Part shown: positions 5,059 to 19,255 of the stretch, in pieces | How positions within the stretch are numbered: position 1 is the stretch's first letter | Layout of the letters: the number at the start of each line of letters is the position of its first letter | Origin: a virus | DNA: 35,318 nucleotides | Direction: 5' to 3' (one strand) | IMG/VR virus record: IMGVR_UViG_3300017967_000088 | Span: 1 to 35,318 of that record | Made by a program: the position numbers and the translations under genes | The notes under the pieces: generated by a model | What the model was told of the DNA's origin: nothing | Database searches by the model: none | The model's input: only the letters and a program-made list of their open reading frames with translations

Positions 5059-6912
5059 TTAACTATAGCTGGACTCTGGGATAATACCTGTACCTGCGGT
5101 ATTAGAACCGCTCGCAATCTCATCATCAATTACATTTACCACTAGGTTATCTATACCCAATGTCAAATAGGTTTCTCGGAGTGCTACGAGATCATTTGAC
5201 TCAGGTACGACCGAAAACTGGAGAATATTTTGATTGCTACCAACAACTTCATCAATGATCAAATCGTTGATAGTGATTTCTCCTCTTTCATAATCAACAC
5301 TTCCCCAATTGCCCCCAATATACTGGGTAGCGCCATTTTCGGTAATGTAGAAAAGCCTTACAGTACCGAGACCATCATCATTTAGGTAATATGTAAAATT
5401 GCCACCATCCACTCTCTTAAAACCATTAGAGGTGAAACTTGGCGACTCCAATTGTGCGTTAATTCTATTACCAAAGCAAATAGTATAGTTAAAACGCTGA
5501 TTCAGGGATACGGTAACATTTTTTCGCATTCTGATGCGAGTGATGTTTGATGTAACCGATTTTTCAGCATCGTCAATGATTTTCTGTAATTTTGAATACT
5601 TAAATTTGCCACCAAACTTGTTAAACTCCTTAGTTTGGTTAAGGGACTCCAGAGTCGTGAAAATGACCTGTTTGAGCTCCTCCTGGGAGCGTCTGGTGAC
5701 GTTTGGGTTAAAGTATACGAAAGAAGTCAAATCAATATAGACTACAGATGGATCTATAATCTTTGGCTCGACCGCTCCTACAGAATAGTTGCGAATTTTC
5801 TTAAGAACTGCCTCTTTTTCGGAAATTGACAGTCTGTCAGCATTTTTGGGTTTAATGGCAATCATAACTTTGCCATATTCGGGAGGATCTGCTTGCTCTC
5901 CTCCGAATGCGACAATTGATTGGACATTTGGGTAAATTTGAGGAATAATCGACTCATAATCCTTAGTAGTTACCGCTCTACCGAAACTAGAGTAGAATTT
6001 GGGTGCGGCATACTTAATAGAAGTCACAGATTCGGCTTCTGCGCCACCATCGGGAGCAGATTCGAGTGTCAGAGTGATTCCAGACGTGATTGGGTTGTTA
6101 CCAGAGTCCTTAATAGTTCCAGCAAAGGTAAAGTCGTCTAAACCATTAGCACCAGAACCACTAGAGAGCGAATATGTCGCTTCAATGACATCGCCATTCA
6201 AAAGTTTCTCCCCGATGATACCATCACCGAAGATAAGTTCAAATCTTCTGTATTCAGACTCTTCAAGGAAGAAGTTTTTGCTAGAGTTATCAACTGCGGT
6301 AATGTCAGTAGCCAAAAGATAGGCGTCAGTAACAGTTCCGCGAGTTACTTCAATCTTTAGAGTAGAAGTATCAGCTTTTTCGTTTCCGAGAATAAATCTT
6401 TGGCGCTCAGAAGTGTTTCTGACAAAAGTATCCTTAATGAAGATGCCCTCATAGGCAACAACATCATTAAAAGTCGCAATACCGTTCAGAGTATTGACAG
6501 AAACGATCAAATCTTTGGGAATTGAGAAAATATAGTTCGTATTTTCCTCACCAACGAAGCTTGCGAAGATTCCAGCGTTGATTTGGACCGCTTGGGGGTA
6601 AGGAAATGGAGTTTGGATCTCAACTTTGAAGGTAGCACGCGCAGATCTGTAACTTCTTGGCGTATAACCGATCAATTTAGCCAATTTTACGACATTTTCG
6701 CGCAAAATTGCGCTATCAAGGAAATTTTCGTTGACAATGAGGTTAGAACTGACCGCCGAATAGTAAGTATTGTAGGCGAGAACGTCTAAAAGGACCGAAA
6801 GTGACGATCCTTCAAAGTCATAATCCGAAAATTCGTCTTGACCAGCAAGATATGCCTTAAGTTGGGCTTTAATCTCGTTAAATTCTAACGAGTTGACCTG
6901 GGTAAGTGCCAT
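5059..6912 (-). CDS. 6: Baseplate wedge subunit gp6
   Basis: 617 aa, close to T4 gp6 (660 aa). The N-terminus (LEFNEIKAQLKAYLAGQDEF, then SVLLDVLAYNTYYSAVSSN and LAKLIGYTPRSYRSARA) is the conserved start of gp6/baseplate J-like proteins in T4-like phages. In T4, gp6 forms the ring of dimers that ties the six wedges together and contacts gp25 and gp7. Its ATG shares one base with the gp25 stop (TAATG at 6914-6910), suggesting translational coupling, and gp7 starts 6 bp after its stop. The stop codon (5059-5061) follows Ser-Tyr-Ser. No frameshift or truncation is visible. Confidence 0.92.
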   Translation of the reverse strand: MALTQVNSLEFNEIKAQLKAYLAGQDEFSDYDFEGSSLSVLLDVLAYNTYYSAVSSNLIVNENFLDSAILRENVVKLAKLIGYTPRSYRSARATFKVEIQTPFPYPQAVQINAGIFASFVGEENTNYIFSIPKDLIVSVNTLNGIATFNDVVAYEGIFIKDTFVRNTSERQRFILGNEKADTSTLKIEVTRGTVTDAYLLATDITAVDNSSKNFFLEESEYRRFELIFGDGIIGEKLLNGDVIEATYSLSSGSGANGLDDFTFAGTIKDSGNNPITSGITLTLESAPDGGAEAESVTSIKYAAPKFYSSFGRAVTTKDYESIIPQIYPNVQSIVAFGGEQADPPEYGKVMIAIKPKNADRLSISEKEAVLKKIRNYSVGAVEPKIIDPSVVYIDLTSFVYFNPNVTRRSQEELKQVIFTTLESLNQTKEFNKFGGKFKYSKLQKIIDDAEKSVTSNITRIRMRKNVTVSLNQRFNYTICFGNRINAQLESPSFTSNGFKRVDGGNFTYYLNDDGLGTVRLFYITENGATQYIGGNWGSVDYERGEITINDLIIDEVVGSNQNILQFSVVPESNDLVALRETYLTLGIDNLVVNVIDDEIASGSNTAGTGIIPESSYS

Positions 6913-7301
6913 TATTTCTTGAGGATGACTGCGATGTTGTCAATAACGTTTGGTAGACCTGTGATGAGATAGTATATCTCTACGTTGAGATCATTTTGGT
7001 CCTCAGTGAAATTCACTTGAACGTCATAACATACAACACGAGGTTCATATTCATTGACTAAGGTTTTCACCCTGTCCTCAAATTGGATCTTATTGCCAGA
7101 TGACCAAAGTTCAAATAGTGGCGAAATTAGGTTTCCACCAAAAGCTGGTAGAAACGGCTTCTCATAGAAGTTGTAACGAACAATGTTCTTTACAGACTCC
7201 TTGATAGCCGCTTCATTCTTCAGAGTGTTAACATCGTCCGTAACGGGATTTTTCCGAAAGGAAAGATCAAAATCCTTAAACGAACGGCTAGTGGATGCCA
7301 T
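6912..7301 (-). CDS. 25: Baseplate wedge subunit gp25 (gp25/TssE fold)
   Basis: 129 aa, near T4 gp25 (132 aa). Residues 85-89 read YEPRV, the EPR core conserved in gp25 and in type VI secretion TssE, where it helps nucleate sheath assembly on the baseplate. The frame can be extended to a TTG at 7310, but the ATG at 7301 (MASTSRSFKDFDLSF) fits the family start and leaves 22 bp to a CTAAATA late-promoter-like motif at 7323-7329. The stop overlaps the gp6 ATG by one base. The order gp25-gp6-gp7 is the T4 core order. Confidence 0.92.
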   Translation of the reverse strand: MASTSRSFKDFDLSFRKNPVTDDVNTLKNEAAIKESVKNIVRYNFYEKPFLPAFGGNLISPLFELWSSGNKIQFEDRVKTLVNEYEPRVVCYDVQVNFTEDQNDLNVEIYYLITGLPNVIDNIAVILKK

Positions 7302-7322
7302 TTGCCACAACTCGACCTACTG

Positions 7323-9990: not shown

Positions 9991-10010
9991 GCTGTGTTGT
10001 GTGTGTGGTT

Positions 10011-10016
10011 AGTCTA
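10011..10016 (-). promoter_or_regulatory. -10-like hexamer for the 9778-9990 gene
   Basis: TAGACT on the minus strand, identical to the hexamer at 11247-11252. It is preceded by a GAGGGGTCGCCCCTC stem-loop, but no TGTCCAC box is found at the usual distance; that stretch is the coding end of the upstream gene. Confidence 0.4.
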
Positions 10017-10034
10017 CCATGGAGGGGCGACCCC

Positions 10035-10286
10035 TCAGAGTTCCCAGAGCATCTCCTCCATCTCAGCGGCGTCGATGGCGGGGTCGTCCCAGCGCACCCC
10101 GTCGCCAGTGGTGACCAGATGGCGACCGATCTGCCCGTCAGTCATGCAGCGCACGAACTTCTCCCAGGCGGTCTCAATGCCTGCCTCTCGGTAGGTCACA
10201 CACGCCTTAGCGGTGTTGTAGAGAAATTCATCGTTTCCGATCCAGAGGGCGGCGTTCCAGGTTTCGTAGTTTGCCCAACCGTTCAT
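10035..10286 (-). CDS. NYETWN-motif phage protein (DUF7249-like)
   Basis: 83 aa. The N-terminus MNGWANYETWNAALWIGNDE matches a small protein family widespread in phages and some bacteria, with the NYETWN..LWI.ND signature; its function is unknown. The C-terminus is acidic (AIDAAEMEEMLWEL). The promoter upstream has a TGTCCAC box and TACAAT. The leader is CA-rich with no Shine-Dalgarno. Monocistronic, with its own promoter, like its neighbours. Confidence 0.85.
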   Translation of the reverse strand: MNGWANYETWNAALWIGNDEFLYNTAKACVTYREAGIETAWEKFVRCMTDGQIGRHLVTTGDGVRWDDPAIDAAEMEEMLWEL

Positions 10287-10311
10287 GGTCTGTCGTTTGT
10301 GTGTTGTGTGT

Positions 10312-10353
10312 ATTGTAGAGCCAGGGTCGCTCCCCTCAGGGGGAGGGTGGACA
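10312..10353 (-). promoter_or_regulatory. TGTCCAC-class promoter for the 10035-10286 gene
   Basis: TGTCCAC box at 10347-10353 directly after the upstream stop codon, 29 nt spacer, then TACAAT at 10312-10317. The spacer contains a CTCCC-loop-GGGGAG stem. No TTGACA-like -35. Confidence 0.65.
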
Positions 10354-10355
10354 CC

Positions 10356-10577
10356 TCAGCGATTGACCCCAAACACCAGATCAGCGATGGCGTTGGTGTT
10401 GGCATCGGTGCGACACCAGCGGACGGGCTCACCCTTCTGGGGGCACATCCAGATCATGCAGGGCTCACCCGTGATTTGTGCCAGGCGGAAGGCGTGGTTC
10501 ATGTCGGTCGCCCAGTCGCACCCGTGAGGATCGAAGTTGGTCCAGGCGGCGGGTTGAACTGCGATGGCGTTGGTCAT
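10356..10577 (-). CDS. Small hypothetical protein, GC-rich block
   Basis: 73 aa, starting MTNAIAVQPAAWTNFDPHGC and rich in Trp, Cys and Met (CMIWMCPQKGEPVRWCRTD). The four Cys could bind metal; no family recognised. It has its own TGTCCAC-class promoter, and the stop codon is followed at once by the box of the next promoter. Confidence 0.75.
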   Translation of the reverse strand: MTNAIAVQPAAWTNFDPHGCDWATDMNHAFRLAQITGEPCMIWMCPQKGEPVRWCRTDANTNAIADLVFGVNR

Positions 10578-10598
10578 GTGCTTTGCTTTGTTCCCTTA

Positions 10599-10641
10599 AT
10601 TATAAGGGCAGAGGTTGGCGGTTCTGGGGGGCTAGTGGACA
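10599..10641 (-). promoter_or_regulatory. TGTCCAC-class promoter for the 10356-10577 gene
   Basis: TGTCCAC at 10635-10641, 30 nt spacer, TATAAT at 10599-10604. The leader contains AAGGGAA followed by a CA-rich stretch. Confidence 0.65.
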
Positions 10642-10655
10642 GTGCCCCGACTGGT

Positions 10656-10820
10656 TCACTTCCTGAGTTCGTGCTGTGCTGCCAGGATGATGTCAGCAGT
10701 CACGACCCGAAGGGGACGGATCGGCTCCCAGGCAACGTACAGCACGAGAGCCGCCACAACGATCTTAAGCATGGTCTGGCGATGGTAGGATGCAGAGCGG
10801 GACTTGGTGAGTGCTTTCAT
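10656..10820 (-). CDS. Small single-pass membrane protein
   Basis: 54 aa from the ATG at 10820. A basic N-terminus (MKALTKSRSASYHRQ) precedes a hydrophobic segment (about residues 17-33, LKIVVAALVLYVAW) and a C-terminal helix ending ELRK. The charge pattern predicts the N-terminus inside the cell. A longer frame exists, but this ATG follows the upstream stop by 2 bp, so the two genes are probably co-translated. Function unknown; small membrane peptides of this sort in phages can act on host envelope or transport. Confidence 0.65.
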   Translation of the reverse strand: MKALTKSRSASYHRQTMLKIVVAALVLYVAWEPIRPLRVVTADIILAAQHELRK

Positions 10821-10822
10821 GA

Positions 10823-10996
10823 TCAGTCGCGGTCGGAGATGTTCCACACTCCCCAGGTGCCTGCCTCAGGGGCAGGGGTGAGGATCTCGGTGCCTGCAGC
10901 AACGTCTGCTTTAGCAGCGGCAGAGCGTGCCATCATGGCGTTGTGCTGACGGGTGTAGTCAGCGAGGATGGCGGAGAGGTCAGGTGTTTTGTTCAT
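10823..10996 (-). CDS. Small hypothetical protein with predicted leaderless start
   Basis: 57 aa from the ATG at 10996 (MNKTPDLSAILADYTRQHNA), Ala-rich and helical, ending VWNISDRD. A start at 11044 is possible in frame, but the promoter hexamer TATACT ends just 6 nt before the 10996 ATG, which puts the predicted transcript start at the A of ATG. No family recognised. Confidence 0.7.
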   Translation of the reverse strand: MNKTPDLSAILADYTRQHNAMMARSAAAKADVAAGTEILTPAPEAGTWGVWNISDRD

Positions 10997-11002
10997 GTCC
11001 TT

Positions 11003-11043
11003 AGTATAGGGTCTCAGGGGGTGCTGTGGGGGTTTGGTGGACA
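11003..11043 (-). promoter_or_regulatory. TGTCCAC-class promoter, leaderless type
   Basis: TGTCCAC at 11037-11043, 28 nt spacer, TATACT at 11003-11008, then AAGGAC and the ATG at 10996. Confidence 0.7.
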
Positions 11044-11078
11044 CTCTGCCAACTGGTCAGGCAGCCGCCCAGTTAGTG

Positions 11079-11240
11079 TTACTTAGTGCCGAACATTTCT
11101 TGATACAAATCGAGATCCTGGTTCTTATACTTTTCATTGGTCAACCAGATCTCTTGTTCGATCCAGGCAACTTGTGCCCTTGCCTTAAGCAAACTCTCAC
11201 GCAGTTCGTAGAGTTTCTGGTTTCGTTCTGTGATTGTCAT
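11079..11240 (-). CDS. Small coiled-coil protein
   Basis: 53 aa (starts MTITERNQKLYELRESLLKA), highly charged and helical throughout, ending MFGTK. No family recognised. It lies next to the HicA-like gene but shows no HicB features (no RHH/HTH and no HicB fold). The start is fixed by TAGACT, which ends 6 nt upstream, as for other leaderless-type genes here. Confidence 0.75.
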   Translation of the reverse strand: MTITERNQKLYELRESLLKARAQVAWIEQEIWLTNEKYKNQDLDLYQEMFGTK

Positions 11241-11246
11241 GTGTTG

Positions 11247-11289
11247 AGTCTACAGGGTCAGGGGTGCTGATCTAGGGGTGCTGTGGACA
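11247..11289 (-). promoter_or_regulatory. TGTCCAC-class promoter, leaderless type
   Basis: TGTCCAC at 11283-11289 right after the TAG of the HicA-like gene, 30 nt spacer, TAGACT at 11247-11252, then CAACAC and the ATG at 11240. Confidence 0.65.
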
Positions 11290-11290
11290 C

Positions 11291-11509
11291 CTAGCAGACC
11301 GTCTCCAGCTTGGCATAGAACTTTAGGAAGTTCTTGGTGACCCCAGGGGAGAACTCATGCGAGCCGCCGCTGCCATGGATCGGTAGGGGGAACGTTTCAC
11401 TGAGGGCAGGGTGTGAGATCTTATCATGTCCAGAGCGACCCCTGCGGATCTCAACGCCTGGGATCTTGGCAAGCATCTTGCGAGCCTGCCTCATCTTGAG
11501 TTGTTTCAT
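11291..11509 (-). CDS. HicA-like (YcfA family) small RNA-binding/toxin-like protein
   Basis: 72 aa, the usual HicA length. It starts MKQLKMRQARKMLAKIPGVE, followed by RSGHDKISHP (27-34), then PLPIHGSGG and SPGVTKNFLKFY. This matches the HicA pattern: a helix, a G-H-x-K strand with the catalytic His (His28), a PxHG turn, and a P-G-T-x-x-x-(I/F)-L helix. HicA proteins are dsRBD-fold mRNA interferases usually paired with HicB. No HicB is seen beside it. It may be a solitary phage effector on host mRNA, or inactive. Family assignment is fairly secure; activity is inferred. Confidence 0.75.
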   Translation of the reverse strand: MKQLKMRQARKMLAKIPGVEIRRGRSGHDKISHPALSETFPLPIHGSGGSHEFSPGVTKNFLKFYAKLETVC

Positions 11510-11515
11510 GGTGTC

Positions 11516-11521
11516 ATTCTA
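11516..11521 (-). promoter_or_regulatory. -10-like hexamer for the HicA-like gene, leaderless type
   Basis: TAGAAT ends 6 nt (GACACC) before the ATG at 11509. A GGGGGC-loop-GCCCCC stem at 11529-11548 lies just upstream and could terminate the preceding gene. No TGTCCAC box is found. Confidence 0.5.
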
Positions 11522-11528
11522 TAGGAAA

Positions 11529-11548
11529 GGGGGCACCGTAGCGCCCCC
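11529..11548 (-). terminator. GC-rich stem-loop before the HicA-like promoter
   Basis: GGGGGC and GCCCCC arms with an 8-nt loop, between the stop of the 108-aa gene and the promoter of the HicA-like gene. On the minus strand the stem is followed by TTTCC, a weak U-rich tail. Confidence 0.45.
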
Positions 11549-11568
11549 ATGTCACGTTCTGTAATGTC

Positions 11569-11895
11569 TCAGGCGAGACGCATGGATGAGAAGAATGGGA
11601 TTGTGTCCATCCCGTTGCCAGTGTTGATGCGAACGAACCAATCGAAGTTCTTCTGGAAGACGCCCTCCCCAGGCATCCCGTGGGCGTCTAGAATGGCGTT
11701 TAGGCGACTCTTGGTAGTGTTAGACTGCCAACCCCCATCAAAGAGGCGAACGAAGTTGTCGCCCACCTCAGCGATCAGGTTGCCATGGAGGCGGACGATA
11801 GCCACACCGTCACAGTGGTTGACCGAGGTGTTCCCAGACTGCCAGTCCCGATTCTCGGAGATGGCGGCGTTCATTTGGGTTTCGATCTTACGCAT
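11569..11895 (-). CDS. Conserved phage hypothetical protein (MRKIETQMNAAI family)
   Basis: 108 aa, starting MRKIETQMNAAISENRDWQS, then GNTSVN, VRLHGNLIAEVGDNFVRLFD and GGWQSNTTKSRLNAILDAHG. This combination recurs in many phages of varied hosts as a small protein of unknown function; I recognise the pattern but know no role. Expressed from its own TGTCCAC-class promoter, with a CA-rich leader lacking a Shine-Dalgarno. Confidence 0.8.
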   Translation of the reverse strand: MRKIETQMNAAISENRDWQSGNTSVNHCDGVAIVRLHGNLIAEVGDNFVRLFDGGWQSNTTKSRLNAILDAHGMPGEGVFQKNFDWFVRINTGNGMDTIPFFSSMRLA

Positions 11896-11921
11896 GGTGT
11901 CGTGTCGTTTGAACTGAGGTC

Positions 11922-11964
11922 ATTATAAGCACCCCTCGGAGGGGTTTGGGTGCCACTGTGGACA
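11922..11964 (-). promoter_or_regulatory. TGTCCAC-class promoter for the 11569-11895 gene
   Basis: TGTCCAC at 11958-11964, 30 nt spacer with an ACCCC-tccga-GGGGT stem, TATAAT at 11922-11927. Confidence 0.7.
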
Positions 11965-11976
11965 CCCTGTCAGGCG

Positions 11977-12159
11977 TCACACCAGGAAGGTGGAAGGGTC
12001 GCCGTAGTCTCCGACGATGTTGCCGAAGGCGTCTCGGATCTCGGCGTAACCGAATTCCTCGGACAGGTCCAGGCAGAGCAGCATGGCACGATCCAGGTCG
12101 GTTGTGGTCTCGTTCTCCTCAGGGGCAGAGGGGCAGATGATCTCGTAGGTGTTGTTCAT
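11977..12159 (-). CDS. Small acidic hypothetical protein
   Basis: 60 aa, starting MNNTYEIICPSAPEENETTT, with an acidic helix and a C-terminal FGNIVGDYGDPSTFLV. No family recognised. TATAAT ends 6 nt before the ATG, giving a predicted leaderless message. The first gene of the GC-rich block in transcription order. Confidence 0.75.
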   Translation of the reverse strand: MNNTYEIICPSAPEENETTTDLDRAMLLCLDLSEEFGYAEIRDAFGNIVGDYGDPSTFLV

Positions 12160-12699: not shown

Positions 12700-12987
12700 T
12701 TATACTTTCTGTGAAAGACTACCATCTTTCACCAAACCATTGAAATACTTACCAAGAGACAAATGCTGCTCTTTTGTATACTTTTCAAGGGTTTCTACCA
12801 ATTCCTTCAAATCACCTGAGAAAGTATAATCATACACTTTCTCTTGACTTGCGAAGGTTACACTAACTTTCTCAGAGTCCACCGAAATCGTGTCAATAGC
12901 TGTGCTGTACTCTTTTACATCAAAAGTGACAGGACTCACAGTTGTGGCGGCTTTCGGTGCTGCTGCTTTTTTCTTGCGTGGTGCCAA
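12700..12987 (-). CDS. Hypothetical protein with TTG start
   Basis: 95 aa if begun at the TTG at 12987: (M)APRKKKAAAPKAATTVSPVT, then a beta-rich middle (TISVDSEKVSVTFASQEKVY) and a helical end. The frame extends to 13119, but that extension would cross the promoter at 13015-13056 and reads as non-natural sequence. No ATG is available, and AAAGGGAT lies 8-10 nt before the TTG. The Lys/Ala/Pro-rich tail followed by a compact domain is common in cyanophage small proteins; function unknown. Confidence 0.65.
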   Translation of the reverse strand: MAPRKKKAAAPKAATTVSPVTFDVKEYSTAIDTISVDSEKVSVTFASQEKVYDYTFSGDLKELVETLEKYTKEQHLSLGKYFNGLVKDGSLSQKV

Positions 12988-13014
12988 GGTTTGATCCCTT
13001 TCGATTACTTTGTA

Positions 13015-13056
13015 ATTATACAGCCAACTCGGAGGGTTTCGGAGGGGTCTGGGACA
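13015..13056 (-). promoter_or_regulatory. TGTCCAC-class promoter, variant box
   Basis: Box variant TGTCCCA at 13050-13056 (preceded by AAC as in other members), 29 nt spacer, TATAAT at 13015-13020. Drives the TTG-start gene. Confidence 0.55.
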
Positions 13057-13179
13057 GTTCTCAAAGTGTACTCCGAGTGGTTGACTTTCGATAGGTTGCG
13101 TGCTAAGACCCACAAGCACCTAGACAATCTCATACGTTTCCGCGAACAAGCTCACACAAACCCATTTTTTAACACATTC

Positions 13180-13233
13180 TTTTCCACAGGTTTTTCCACA
13201 ACGTTTTCCACAGAATACACGGAGTTTTCCACA
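13180..13233. other. Cluster of four DnaA boxes (TTTTCCACA)
   Basis: Four identical TTTTCCACA 9-mers on the plus strand at 13180-13188, 13192-13200, 13204-13212 and 13225-13233. Each matches the DnaA-box consensus TT(A/T)TNCACA, and TTTTCCACA is the form reported for cyanobacterial origins. Start-to-start distances are 12, 12 and 21 bp. They lie in the longest non-coding stretch here (12988-13239), next to a T6 run. Candidate replication origin or DnaA-titration site. Confidence 0.7.
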
Positions 13234-13239
13234 AGTATG

Positions 13240-13857
13240 TTAGATTAACTGTTGTTTCAACACATCTATCACCACGGAGTAACGCGGAGCCTGTCCCTCA
13301 TTATACACTCTATGTTTCTTCTTTGCTCTGAAGATCATATACTCTGACTCCATGAAATACTTTCTTACTACTCTCTTCTCTGTCTCTTGTACTTCTAGGA
13401 ATGTACCATTGTCAGTAGAGATATTGTAGAAAGATCTGAATTGGATTACTCCTTCACATGGGTCATCATCATAGTGCCAATCTAGTCCATAGCCAGGATC
13501 GAGTACAGTAATACCAGCATATGTGGTATGACCAATGAACTCAATCATCTTGGTTAGTTTAGGCATCAGTTTAGCATTACGTTTGTAGTGCTGACTGTTG
13601 TATAGTAGGGGAGCGATACACCAACTAGGATTAGTTGTCCTTTGTGGTGCTTCATAATACTCCTTCTCTAGTATAGGAAAGCCTTTACCTTCTTTAGCGA
13701 TGAAGTTCTCTTGATAGGAGGCAAAGTCTCTAAACTCTAGTTGTGGTAGTGCTTTATCAAACTCTTCTCTGATCTGATCATTGAATCGTTTGAGTACGAG
13801 TAATCGTGGCTCTACTTTACTTGGATTCAGGAATGAGGAGTTTGTTTGTTGTTCCAT
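13240..13857 (-). CDS. Aspartyl/asparaginyl beta-hydroxylase-like 2OG oxygenase
   Basis: 205 aa from the ATG at 13857. The C-terminal half shows a double-stranded beta-helix metal site: WHYDDD with His128 and Asp130, distal His182 (KKHRVYNEGQ), and Arg192 in APRYSVVIDV, which would hold 2-oxoglutarate. The spacing and the RYSVVIDV strand resemble Asp/Asn beta-hydroxylases and related phage dioxygenases. The likely role is hydroxylation of a protein or small-molecule substrate using 2OG, Fe(II) and O2; the substrate is unknown. An in-frame ATG at 13881 is an alternative start; both overlap the end of the preceding gene. It ends 6 bp from the DnaA-box cluster. Confidence 0.7.
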   Translation of the reverse strand: MEQQTNSSFLNPSKVEPRLLVLKRFNDQIREEFDKALPQLEFRDFASYQENFIAKEGKGFPILEKEYYEAPQRTTNPSWCIAPLLYNSQHYKRNAKLMPKLTKMIEFIGHTTYAGITVLDPGYGLDWHYDDDPCEGVIQFRSFYNISTDNGTFLEVQETEKRVVRKYFMESEYMIFRAKKKHRVYNEGQAPRYSVVIDVLKQQLI

Positions 13858-14014
13858 ACTGGGAATAGAGTTTAGCATCATTTAGAGCTTGTTGATCGCT
13901 CTTGAATGGTCCATAGTTGTATGGTGTATCTTGATAGGACCAATACACACCTTTACGCTTTTGCTTGAGATCAATGATGATTTCTTGGTTATTAACTTGG
14001 AATTGGTGCTTCAT
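13817..14014 (-). CDS. Small hypothetical protein
   Basis: 65 aa, starting MKHQFQVNNQEIIIDLKQKR, with alternating basic strand and an aromatic centre (YWSYQDTPYNYGPF) and a C-terminal helix. No family recognised. It overlaps the preceding 59-aa gene by 23 bp and the following oxygenase by about 41 bp, each in another frame, as is common in compact phage operons. Confidence 0.7.
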   Translation of the reverse strand: MKHQFQVNNQEIIIDLKQKRKGVYWSYQDTPYNYGPFKSDQQALNDAKLYSQYGTTNKLLIPESK

Positions 14015-15486: not shown

Positions 15487-15839
15487 CGCTTGTACAGGTA
15501 ACCACCTGCCCAGTCACAACGCTCAAACATCTCTTCACGAGAAGGAATAGAGAGCACATTGTAACGCTCACCCTTAGCAGGAGCTTTTACACTCGCAGGC
15601 TTATACACAGAACCAGTCTTCATGTCAATAAAAGCATGGATACTATCACGCTTACCATTGATATACATGTGGATCTTGTGATACTTACGCCCCTCAGAGT
15701 TCATCTTGTAAGTATAACCATCAGGAGCATCATGGGACAGCGCATCACACAGCATCAGCCCATACTTGACAATGTTGAGATAGATCGTGTTCCGCGCATC
15801 AGCGGTGGCGCAGAACTCAGCGAAGGTAGCGGTGCTCAT
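15483..15839 (-). CDS. Hypothetical protein with own promoter
   Basis: 118 aa from the ATG at 15839 (MSTATFAEFCATADARNTIY). Residues 40-75 read YTYKMNSEGRKYHKIHMYIN and IHAFIDMKTGSVYKPASVKA, a beta sheet; the family appears in cyanophages but I know no function. The frame extends upstream to 15899, but the promoter at 15861-15903 lies within that extension, so 15839 is preferred. Confidence 0.75.
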   Translation of the reverse strand: MSTATFAEFCATADARNTIYLNIVKYGLMLCDALSHDAPDGYTYKMNSEGRKYHKIHMYINGKRDSIHAFIDMKTGSVYKPASVKAPAKGERYNVLSIPSREEMFERCDWAGGYLYKR

Positions 15840-18016: not shown

Positions 18017-19255
18017 TCATACCCATGCGTGGGCAGGATTACCCTTAGTAAAGATACAATCTACCACACGCTGTAGACGTGAGGCAATCTGTGCGCCATG
18101 GTTGCTGTAGACAGGGACAGTAACAAAGCCAGTGCCCTTCTTATAGTTAGCCCAGTTACCTGGCTTGAGCGCACCACTAGAGATTGCTTGCGCGTCGTCG
18201 CGGTGAAGACGAATCACGCGACCGATAGTCTGCGCCATCTCAATGATTGGCAACTGGCGAAGGAGAATAACGTGCGTCAAACCAGGCACGTTGATACCTT
18301 CAGACAGAATAGAATAGTGGAAGAGGACAAACTTCTTGTCCTCATCGAGTCCCCAAGCGTGAAGAGTGTCAAAGAATTGGTCACGAGTGACCTTCTGACC
18401 GTCAATGATTGCGCCATGCTTGGATGTAATCATCATCCAAGAGTAACCACGCTCGATCAACTCTTGCTTGAGACCAGTCTGAACAAACATGTTCATGATA
18501 TTCCGCGCAGAGGGAGCAGCAACCAGAACTTTGGTGGCTTGCTCATCACTGAGAGTGTCAATGATGCCAGTCACAGTGTCAGCATCGACAAAAGCAATAG
18601 TCTCTTTGGTACGAACTGCCTCAGTCTTGTGAGTGATAATGGTGGGAGCAACAATGCTGCCGCACTCCATCAGCTCCTGAGCAGGAACAGTGATCAGATT
18701 GTTACCATAGATCTGAGCATTGTTCATGCCACGCTTGCCATTGCGAGCAAACTTAGGAGTAGCAGTGAAGAAGTATGCGTTGTCAGCGTCAACAGATGCC
18801 AGAGCAACAACGGGGAAGAAGTTACGCTGTACGCTATTGTGTGCCTCGTCGCAATACAGAGTGTTGATCTTGACACCAGCATCAACAATCTTGTTCAGAG
18901 AGTTGTAGGTGGTGAATAGAATAGCGTGCTCATTGGCTTTGCGGCACATGTCAACGAACAAACCGATCTTGTCGCTGTTAGTAGAGCGGAAGTGAGGAGT
19001 CTCACCACTGTGAACGTGACCGATGATCACGTTGTCAATCAGCTCTTTGAACTCATCACAGAGCTGAAGCGCGAGCATGATGCGAGGCGCCACAACGACA
19101 GTCAGAGTGGGCTCAGATGCCTCAGAGAGGCGGTTGAGCAGGTCTCTGATGATACAGAGGGTCTTGCCGCCGCCAGTGGGGATGTAGACAGTGCCACGGT
19201 CCCAAGCAGCGAGGGCGTCAACCGTGCGTTGCTGGTGGGGGCGAAGGGTGTACAT
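18017..19255 (-). CDS. Superfamily 2 DEAH helicase (ResIII/UvsW-like)
   Basis: 412 aa. Motif I PTGGGKT at 26-32, the DEAH box at 136-139 (DEAHN), motif III TATP at 164-167, and motif VI QTIGRVIRLH near 345, so all core SF2 helicase motifs are present. The N-terminal RPHQQRTVDAL is the Q-motif-like RPYQ region of the ResIII class. It is smaller than T4 UvsW (503 aa) and lacks an obvious N-terminal DNA-binding add-on. Likely an ATP-driven DNA translocase used in replication fork rescue or recombination. It has a TGTCCAC-class promoter with an embedded terminator. Confidence 0.9.
   Translation of the reverse strand: MYTLRPHQQRTVDALAAWDRGTVYIPTGGGKTLCIIRDLLNRLSEASEPTLTVVVAPRIMLALQLCDEFKELIDNVIIGHVHSGETPHFRSTNSDKIGLFVDMCRKANEHAILFTTYNSLNKIVDAGVKINTLYCDEAHNSVQRNFFPVVALASVDADNAYFFTATPKFARNGKRGMNNAQIYGNNLITVPAQELMECGSIVAPTIITHKTEAVRTKETIAFVDADTVTGIIDTLSDEQATKVLVAAPSARNIMNMFVQTGLKQELIERGYSWMMITSKHGAIIDGQKVTRDQFFDTLHAWGLDEDKKFVLFHYSILSEGINVPGLTHVILLRQLPIIEMAQTIGRVIRLHRDDAQAISSGALKPGNWANYKKGTGFVTVPVYSNHGAQIASRLQRVVDCIFTKGNPAHAWV

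Follow-up and report, generated by a model that had tools for sequence, protein, structure and literature searches.

The 35,318-bp stretch of viral DNA analysed here (the window) carries four exact copies of the 9-mer TTTTCCACA within 54 bp, and this cluster is not a product of chance. The array is kept at one locus across many Kyanoviridae genera, as part of a compact element that occurs once in nearly all of the marine T4-type cyanophages examined. We put at about even the probability that this element is an early phage replication origin at which host DnaA docks.

Sequence and setting of the array

All four boxes lie on the + strand, at 13180-13188, 13192-13200, 13204-13212 and 13225-13233 (array 13180..13233), in steps of 12, 12 and 21 bp. 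A preliminary description of this DNA had their starts, common direction and non-coding location right. It was also correct that the window holds no other such cluster: TTTTCCACA is absent from the rest of it on both strands. Its own concern, that the 9-mers might occur elsewhere at chance frequency, did not materialise, with 0.57 copies expected across the whole window from shuffles. Outside the array, the pattern TTWTNCACA occurs in the window only as TTATACACA, at 15601. The reported spacing was accurate but the suggested helical phasing holds only in part, as 21 bp corresponds to two turns whilst a 12-bp step leaves each successive box turned about 50 degrees. Every step is a multiple of 3, which produces what looks like a + strand ORF with repeated FST (12844-13248) across the array. 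A coding repeat was rejected because the frame is not conserved; in the relatives tested it meets stops at the array or next to it, or the repeat has been lost.

The window is a fragment of a T4-like cyanophage (Kyanoviridae), as indicated by its genes for baseplate wedge proteins gp25 (6912..7310, - strand; phrog_261, E 2e-38) and gp6 (5059..6912, - strand; phrog_219, E 1e-181) and for a Dda-like DNA helicase (18017..19255, - strand; phrog_16, E 3e-60). Its nearest records are Synechococcus phages. The element sits between the helicase gene and baseplate genes 25 and 6, with the surrounding genes on the - strand. The array itself is intergenic, flanked by the stop of a 2OG-type Asp/Arg beta-hydroxylase family gene (13240-13881, - strand; Pfam PF05118, E 3e-10) and by a small gene downstream of the element (12700-12987, - strand; 95 aa, TTG start, phrog_4357, function unknown). 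In phage Sf-FR1 the annotated neighbour corresponding to this small gene is named KTSC domain. A separate feature of the window is an island of GC 0.54-0.60 at 10001-12000, against about 0.40-0.49 nearby; the + strand ORF there (9999-10949, 316 aa) had no Pfam match.

On the + strand the element reads as promoter-like block, linker, AT-rich run and boxes. The block, TTGACT-N17-TAAGAC (TTGACTTTCGATAGGTTGCGTGCTAAGAC, 13081..13109, + strand), is conserved, points toward the array and runs antisense to every surrounding gene. A sigma-70 consensus scan of the window called no promoter at the block, and TAAGAC is a poor -10; we regard the block as promoter-like, probably weak as a sigma-70 promoter, and its promoter role as putative. 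The linker (13110..13163) varies in length, and among relatives the distance from the start of the block to box 1 is 72-156 bp. It is followed by the conserved AT-rich run ATTTTTTAACACATTC (13164..13179), a candidate unwinding element. The 20-mer at 13164-13183 is among the least stable DNA of the 2 kb around it, of which just 0.7% ranks lower in stability. In a set of 30 elements, for which some seeds were picked via the T-run whereas the gp25-derived seeds were not, the block-to-box stretch held the least stable 20-mer of its 2 kb, or nearly so (median rank 0.15%). On the - strand, TATAAT at 13015..13020 reads as the probable -10 of a divergent promoter for the small gene at 12700-12987, and relatives have TATAAT/TATACT-type hexamers at the corresponding site. 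Just upstream of the block, many relatives (L125, L126, L383, L388 and others) carry a conserved dyad, TGTGCCACTTTGAGGTCTGGCACA, which is kept weakly in the window. A structured RNA was also considered and rejected: the element gave no Rfam match, and its consensus fold came to only 2 pairs and -0.2 kcal/mol, with no structure conserved.

Conservation across cyanophages

A comparison with other cyanophage genomes, as the preliminary description had proposed, found the array at the same locus in many of them. An 86-bp query around the array matched dozens of cyanophage records, mostly unannotated at that site. Arrays are present in S-H38, S-CREM1, S-RIM44, Sf-CH11, S-PM2 and Sf-FR1, as well as in Syn1, S-CAM1, S-CAM3, S-WAM1, S-MbCM6, P-SSM7 and others. 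They share one genomic region, close to gp25/gp6, and often adjoin a 2OG oxygenase gene. In S-WAM1, S-MbCM6, P-SSM7 and Syn9 the neighbouring genes are reversed, and the entire element is reversed with them. Whole-record counts gave few other exact copies of TTTTCCACA per genome, so that the cluster stands out. In S-PM2, annotated tRNA features overlie CDSs and the element (NC_006820.1, 17.4-19.3 kb); ARAGORN found no tRNA there and the coordinates look displaced.

The number of boxes per element ranges from 1 to 4, and both number and orientation vary. A same-direction 12-bp step accounts for 26 of 42 neighbouring pairs, and inverted pairs 23-24 apart form the second commonest type. S-RIM8, ACG-2014b and Syn9 have single boxes or inverted pairs. 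The occurrence of boxes in both orientations favours a double-stranded-DNA-binding protein over an RNA motif.

The block in relatives consists of TTGAC (TTGTG in two), 17 bases and usually TAAGAC or TAAGCC. S-H38, S-BM3 and S-WAM1 keep this spacing with a different sequence and a better -10 (TTGACA-N17-TAGACT or TACACT). In the core-bearing Synechococcus phages tested, a block matrix gave one outstanding match per genome, with scores of 38-51, whereas the second-best site reached no more than 12.6. Best matches were lower in P-SSM4 (18.0 vs 8.0) and P-HM2 (22.3 vs 5.1); P-SSM2 had no match and the divergent block of S-H38 was missed. In 821 kb of gp25-anchored loci, chosen without use of the boxes, the matrix found 13 blocks and its reversed form none, and boxes lay just downstream in 8 of the 13. 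When block and T-run together were used as a DNA pattern, again without the boxes, more loci were recovered, and boxes were present at almost all of those that were real.

The contig G002, from a close relative, allowed boxes and spacers to be compared directly. Between window and G002 the box bases are identical at 36/36 positions and the spacer bases at 9/18 (Fisher p 9e-6), with flanking genes 81-91% identical over the compared stretch, the 2OG figure being a lower bound because the alignment was truncated at one end. The comparison demonstrates, at the level of sequence, that the 9-mers are under selection while the spacers change. Chance is thus rejected by the shuffles, by conservation in relatives, by the gp25-anchored sample and by the box-versus-spacer test. 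G002 (200 kb) has two block matches, with element copies at C1:964 and 106122, one of the two lying at a contig end; it is possibly a chimeric or multi-genome assembly. A further 115 viral contigs, which lack the cyanophage core, also bear short arrays of at least three TTTTCCACA, spaced at 11-12 and 20-22 bp.

Several relatives keep the block and the AT-rich run without TTTTCCACA, namely S-WAM2, S-RSM4, S-CAM4, ACG-2014e, P-SSM4, P-HM2 and several contigs. The boxes thus form a module that is common yet can be replaced, set on a more widely shared core, and DnaA cannot be essential to all relatives. S-WAM2, S-RSM4 and the loci L383 and L388 have, in place of the boxes, a short inverted repeat, TGATT[A/C]TCA ... 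TTGAGAA, which is seldom seen in host oriC (1/29) and to the eye is somewhat Fur-box-like. Loci recorded with this repeat include L125:6395-6560 and L126:6176-6340. The box-less L125, L126, L383 and L388 each have a second TGATTNTCA about 75 bp beyond the inverted repeat.

Host oriC and DnaA

The identification of TTTTCCACA as the DnaA box of cyanobacterial origins was borne out in the hosts. Upstream of dnaN in 29 Cyanobiaceae there were 17 exact occurrences of TTTTCCACA (0.2 in shuffles) and 95 when up to one mismatch was allowed (7.5 in shuffles). The commonest 9-mers in these regions include TAGTAGTAG, TTTTCCCCA and TTTTCCACA. Thus TTTTCCACA and its near variants are the main motif of Cyanobiaceae oriC, beside the DnaA-trio, which in its TAGTAG-type form is present in 22 of the 29 regions. 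The typical picocyanobacterial arrangement is of tandem TTTTCC[AC]CA boxes, a short spacer and then TACTACTA (DnaA-trio) repeats. Individual hosts depart from the exact motif: the main oriC pair of WH7803 is degenerate (TTTTCCACG-TTTTCCCCA), and no TTTTCCACA pair was found near dnaN in WH7803, RCC307, SynAce01 or WH5701. Such mismatch was considered as an argument against DnaA and rejected, as wider sampling identified one-mismatch and exact boxes as the family rule.

Cyanobacterial DnaA binds origins built of TTTTCCACA boxes (PMC4674748). DnaA is encoded in four hosts, whereas the phages had neither its DNA-binding domain (0/14) nor, above the cut-off, its ATPase domain (0/19). Given the shared oriC motif, the published binding and this distribution of DnaA, the simplest inference is that host DnaA binds the phage array.

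Possible roles of the element and comparison with known origins

An early origin assisted by DnaA is the reading we favour because the layout of T4 oriF/oriG and marks of T4 oriE recur in the element. Host RNA polymerase would start an antisense transcript at the TTGAC-N17-TAAGAC block, and the transcript would enter the adjoining unstable DNA, which would open. Host DnaA could then dock on the TTTTCCACA array beside the opened stretch and help to open it or hold it open, or bring in helicase. Phage recombination-dependent replication would take over afterwards. For transcription, DnaA binding and origin activity alike, these steps are what we infer.

Several features expected of a DnaA-dependent origin are present, namely multiple host-type boxes in a short stretch and, in most of the 30 elements, easily unwound AT-rich DNA adjacent to them. 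A candidate unwinding element downstream of the block, as in an origin of the T4 oriF/oriG type, is present too. No conserved DnaA-trio was found beside the phage arrays, which counts against an origin, though the trio is not universal among DnaA origins. The AT-rich run also lies on the opposite side of the boxes from that in host oriC. The poor -10, the box-less relatives and the variable number and orientation of boxes point the same way. Cumulative GC skew, a check suggested in the preliminary description, had no consistent turn at the element in six complete or near-complete genomes and was uninformative. That description had offered an early origin, a DnaA trap or a switch for the flanking genes; its reading is supported in part, by non-chance occurrence, conservation at one locus and the host oriC type of box, whilst phasing is weak and skew gives no help.

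The main rival is a DnaA-controlled antisense promoter. DnaA on the array would control the antisense transcript, the divergent promoter of the 12700-12987 gene or both, with no origin involved. The array does adjoin two divergent promoter-like sequences, the single boxes and inverted pairs of S-RIM8, ACG-2014b and Syn9 would suit an operator, and DnaA is known to act as a transcription factor too (PMC8203912). We consider this unlikely, if still to be reckoned with: the boxes are placed some 36-120 bp past the putative start instead of over the promoter, and a simple operator has no need of the conserved, least stable stretch that separates block from boxes. It is less probable again that a phage-encoded initiator uses the repeats as iterons and that these only look like DnaA boxes. 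The 12-bp direct repetition recalls the T4 oriE iterons (PMC3016281) and the box-less relatives imply that the core can also be served by a different factor, but the 9-mer is the hosts' own oriC motif, the neighbourhoods seen contain no annotated initiator gene and the phages examined no DnaA-like gene.

Two further readings are improbable. Multiplying phage copies might draw DnaA off host oriC and so halt host replication, for which the exact TTTTCCACA of the phages would be well suited when set against the degenerate WH7803 pair. Two to four sites per genome would titrate little before replication, however, and a sink has no need of a block, an AT-rich run or a fixed position; we give it a low probability. 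Lower still is that of a different kind of DNA site, for example one where recombination or packaging starts, or of a structured antisense RNA. The single copy per genome would fit such a site, but T4-type headful packaging needs none, boxes occur in both orientations, and the fold and Rfam searches speak against an RNA.

Returning to the early origin assisted by DnaA, we tentatively entertain, as possible but doubtful, a more specific form: a single hybrid origin in which an R-loop-style promoter and unwinding element are controlled by host DnaA, with the DnaA module swapped in some lineages for a different binding module on that core. If true, the first replication round of a lytic T4-like phage would be tied to the cell-cycle- and light-dependent state of DnaA in its host. 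More generally, an origin of this kind would link phage replication to host DnaA level and cell cycle. The element offers one exact site to examine in S-PM2, Syn9, Syn1 and P-HM2, with box-less relatives as natural controls; it lies at about 19.2-19.4 kb in S-PM2, about 52.6 kb in Syn9 and about 35.7 kb in P-HM2. A full-text search, with most subscription journals outside it, found no report of DnaA boxes in T4-type phages or cyanophages. For cyanomyovirus origins, one review mentions only the predicted single theta origin of Syn9 (PMC2984593). The accessible parts of the P-HM2 and S-PM2 transcriptome papers contained no origin, antisense or start-site data for the element locus.

Among known systems, T4 oriF and oriG span about 100 bp and comprise a promoter and an A+T-rich unwinding element (PMC3016281). 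The cyanophage element likewise sets a promoter-like block ahead of A+T-rich DNA that melts easily. It differs in its weak -10, in having no assigned MotA box and in adding host-type DnaA boxes, which are undescribed in the T4 origins reviewed. There is also about one element per cyanophage genome, whereas T4 has several origins. The R-loop is a feature of oriF/oriG, to which the element is likened by its layout alone. T4 oriE, with 12-nt iterons and an early promoter, shares 12-nt spaced direct repeats and the lack of a middle promoter (PMC3016281). Its annotated primer is complementary to the transcript of gene 5, a baseplate gene, just as the cyanophage block is antisense to the surrounding genes, and oriE lies upstream of 5.4-6 where the element lies upstream of 25-6. 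The oriE repeats themselves (L430:3427-3558; T4 79.4 kb) differ in sequence, follow a 24/48-nt period and fall within the coding sequence of gene 5, so they may reflect protein repeats and not iterons; the cyanophage boxes are non-coding and match the host oriC motif.

Picocyanobacterial oriC resembles the element in its tandem TTTTCCACA-type boxes beside AT-rich DNA. The host boxes are 8-10 bp apart with the trio on their 3' side, whereas the phage element has a 12-bp step, an AT-rich run 5' of the boxes and no trio. Host DnaA boxes in phage and plasmid origins are already known: the P1 plasmid origin and lambda pO/ori place them next to A+T-rich DNA (PMC5043065), and in lambda the convergent pO promoter lies upstream of them (PMC3985674). 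Both phages are temperate, with initiators of their own (RepA and O), whereas the cyanophages are lytic, of T4 type and have no linked initiator. If our reading is right, these abundant marine T4-type phages, unlike T4 itself, make use of their host's initiator.
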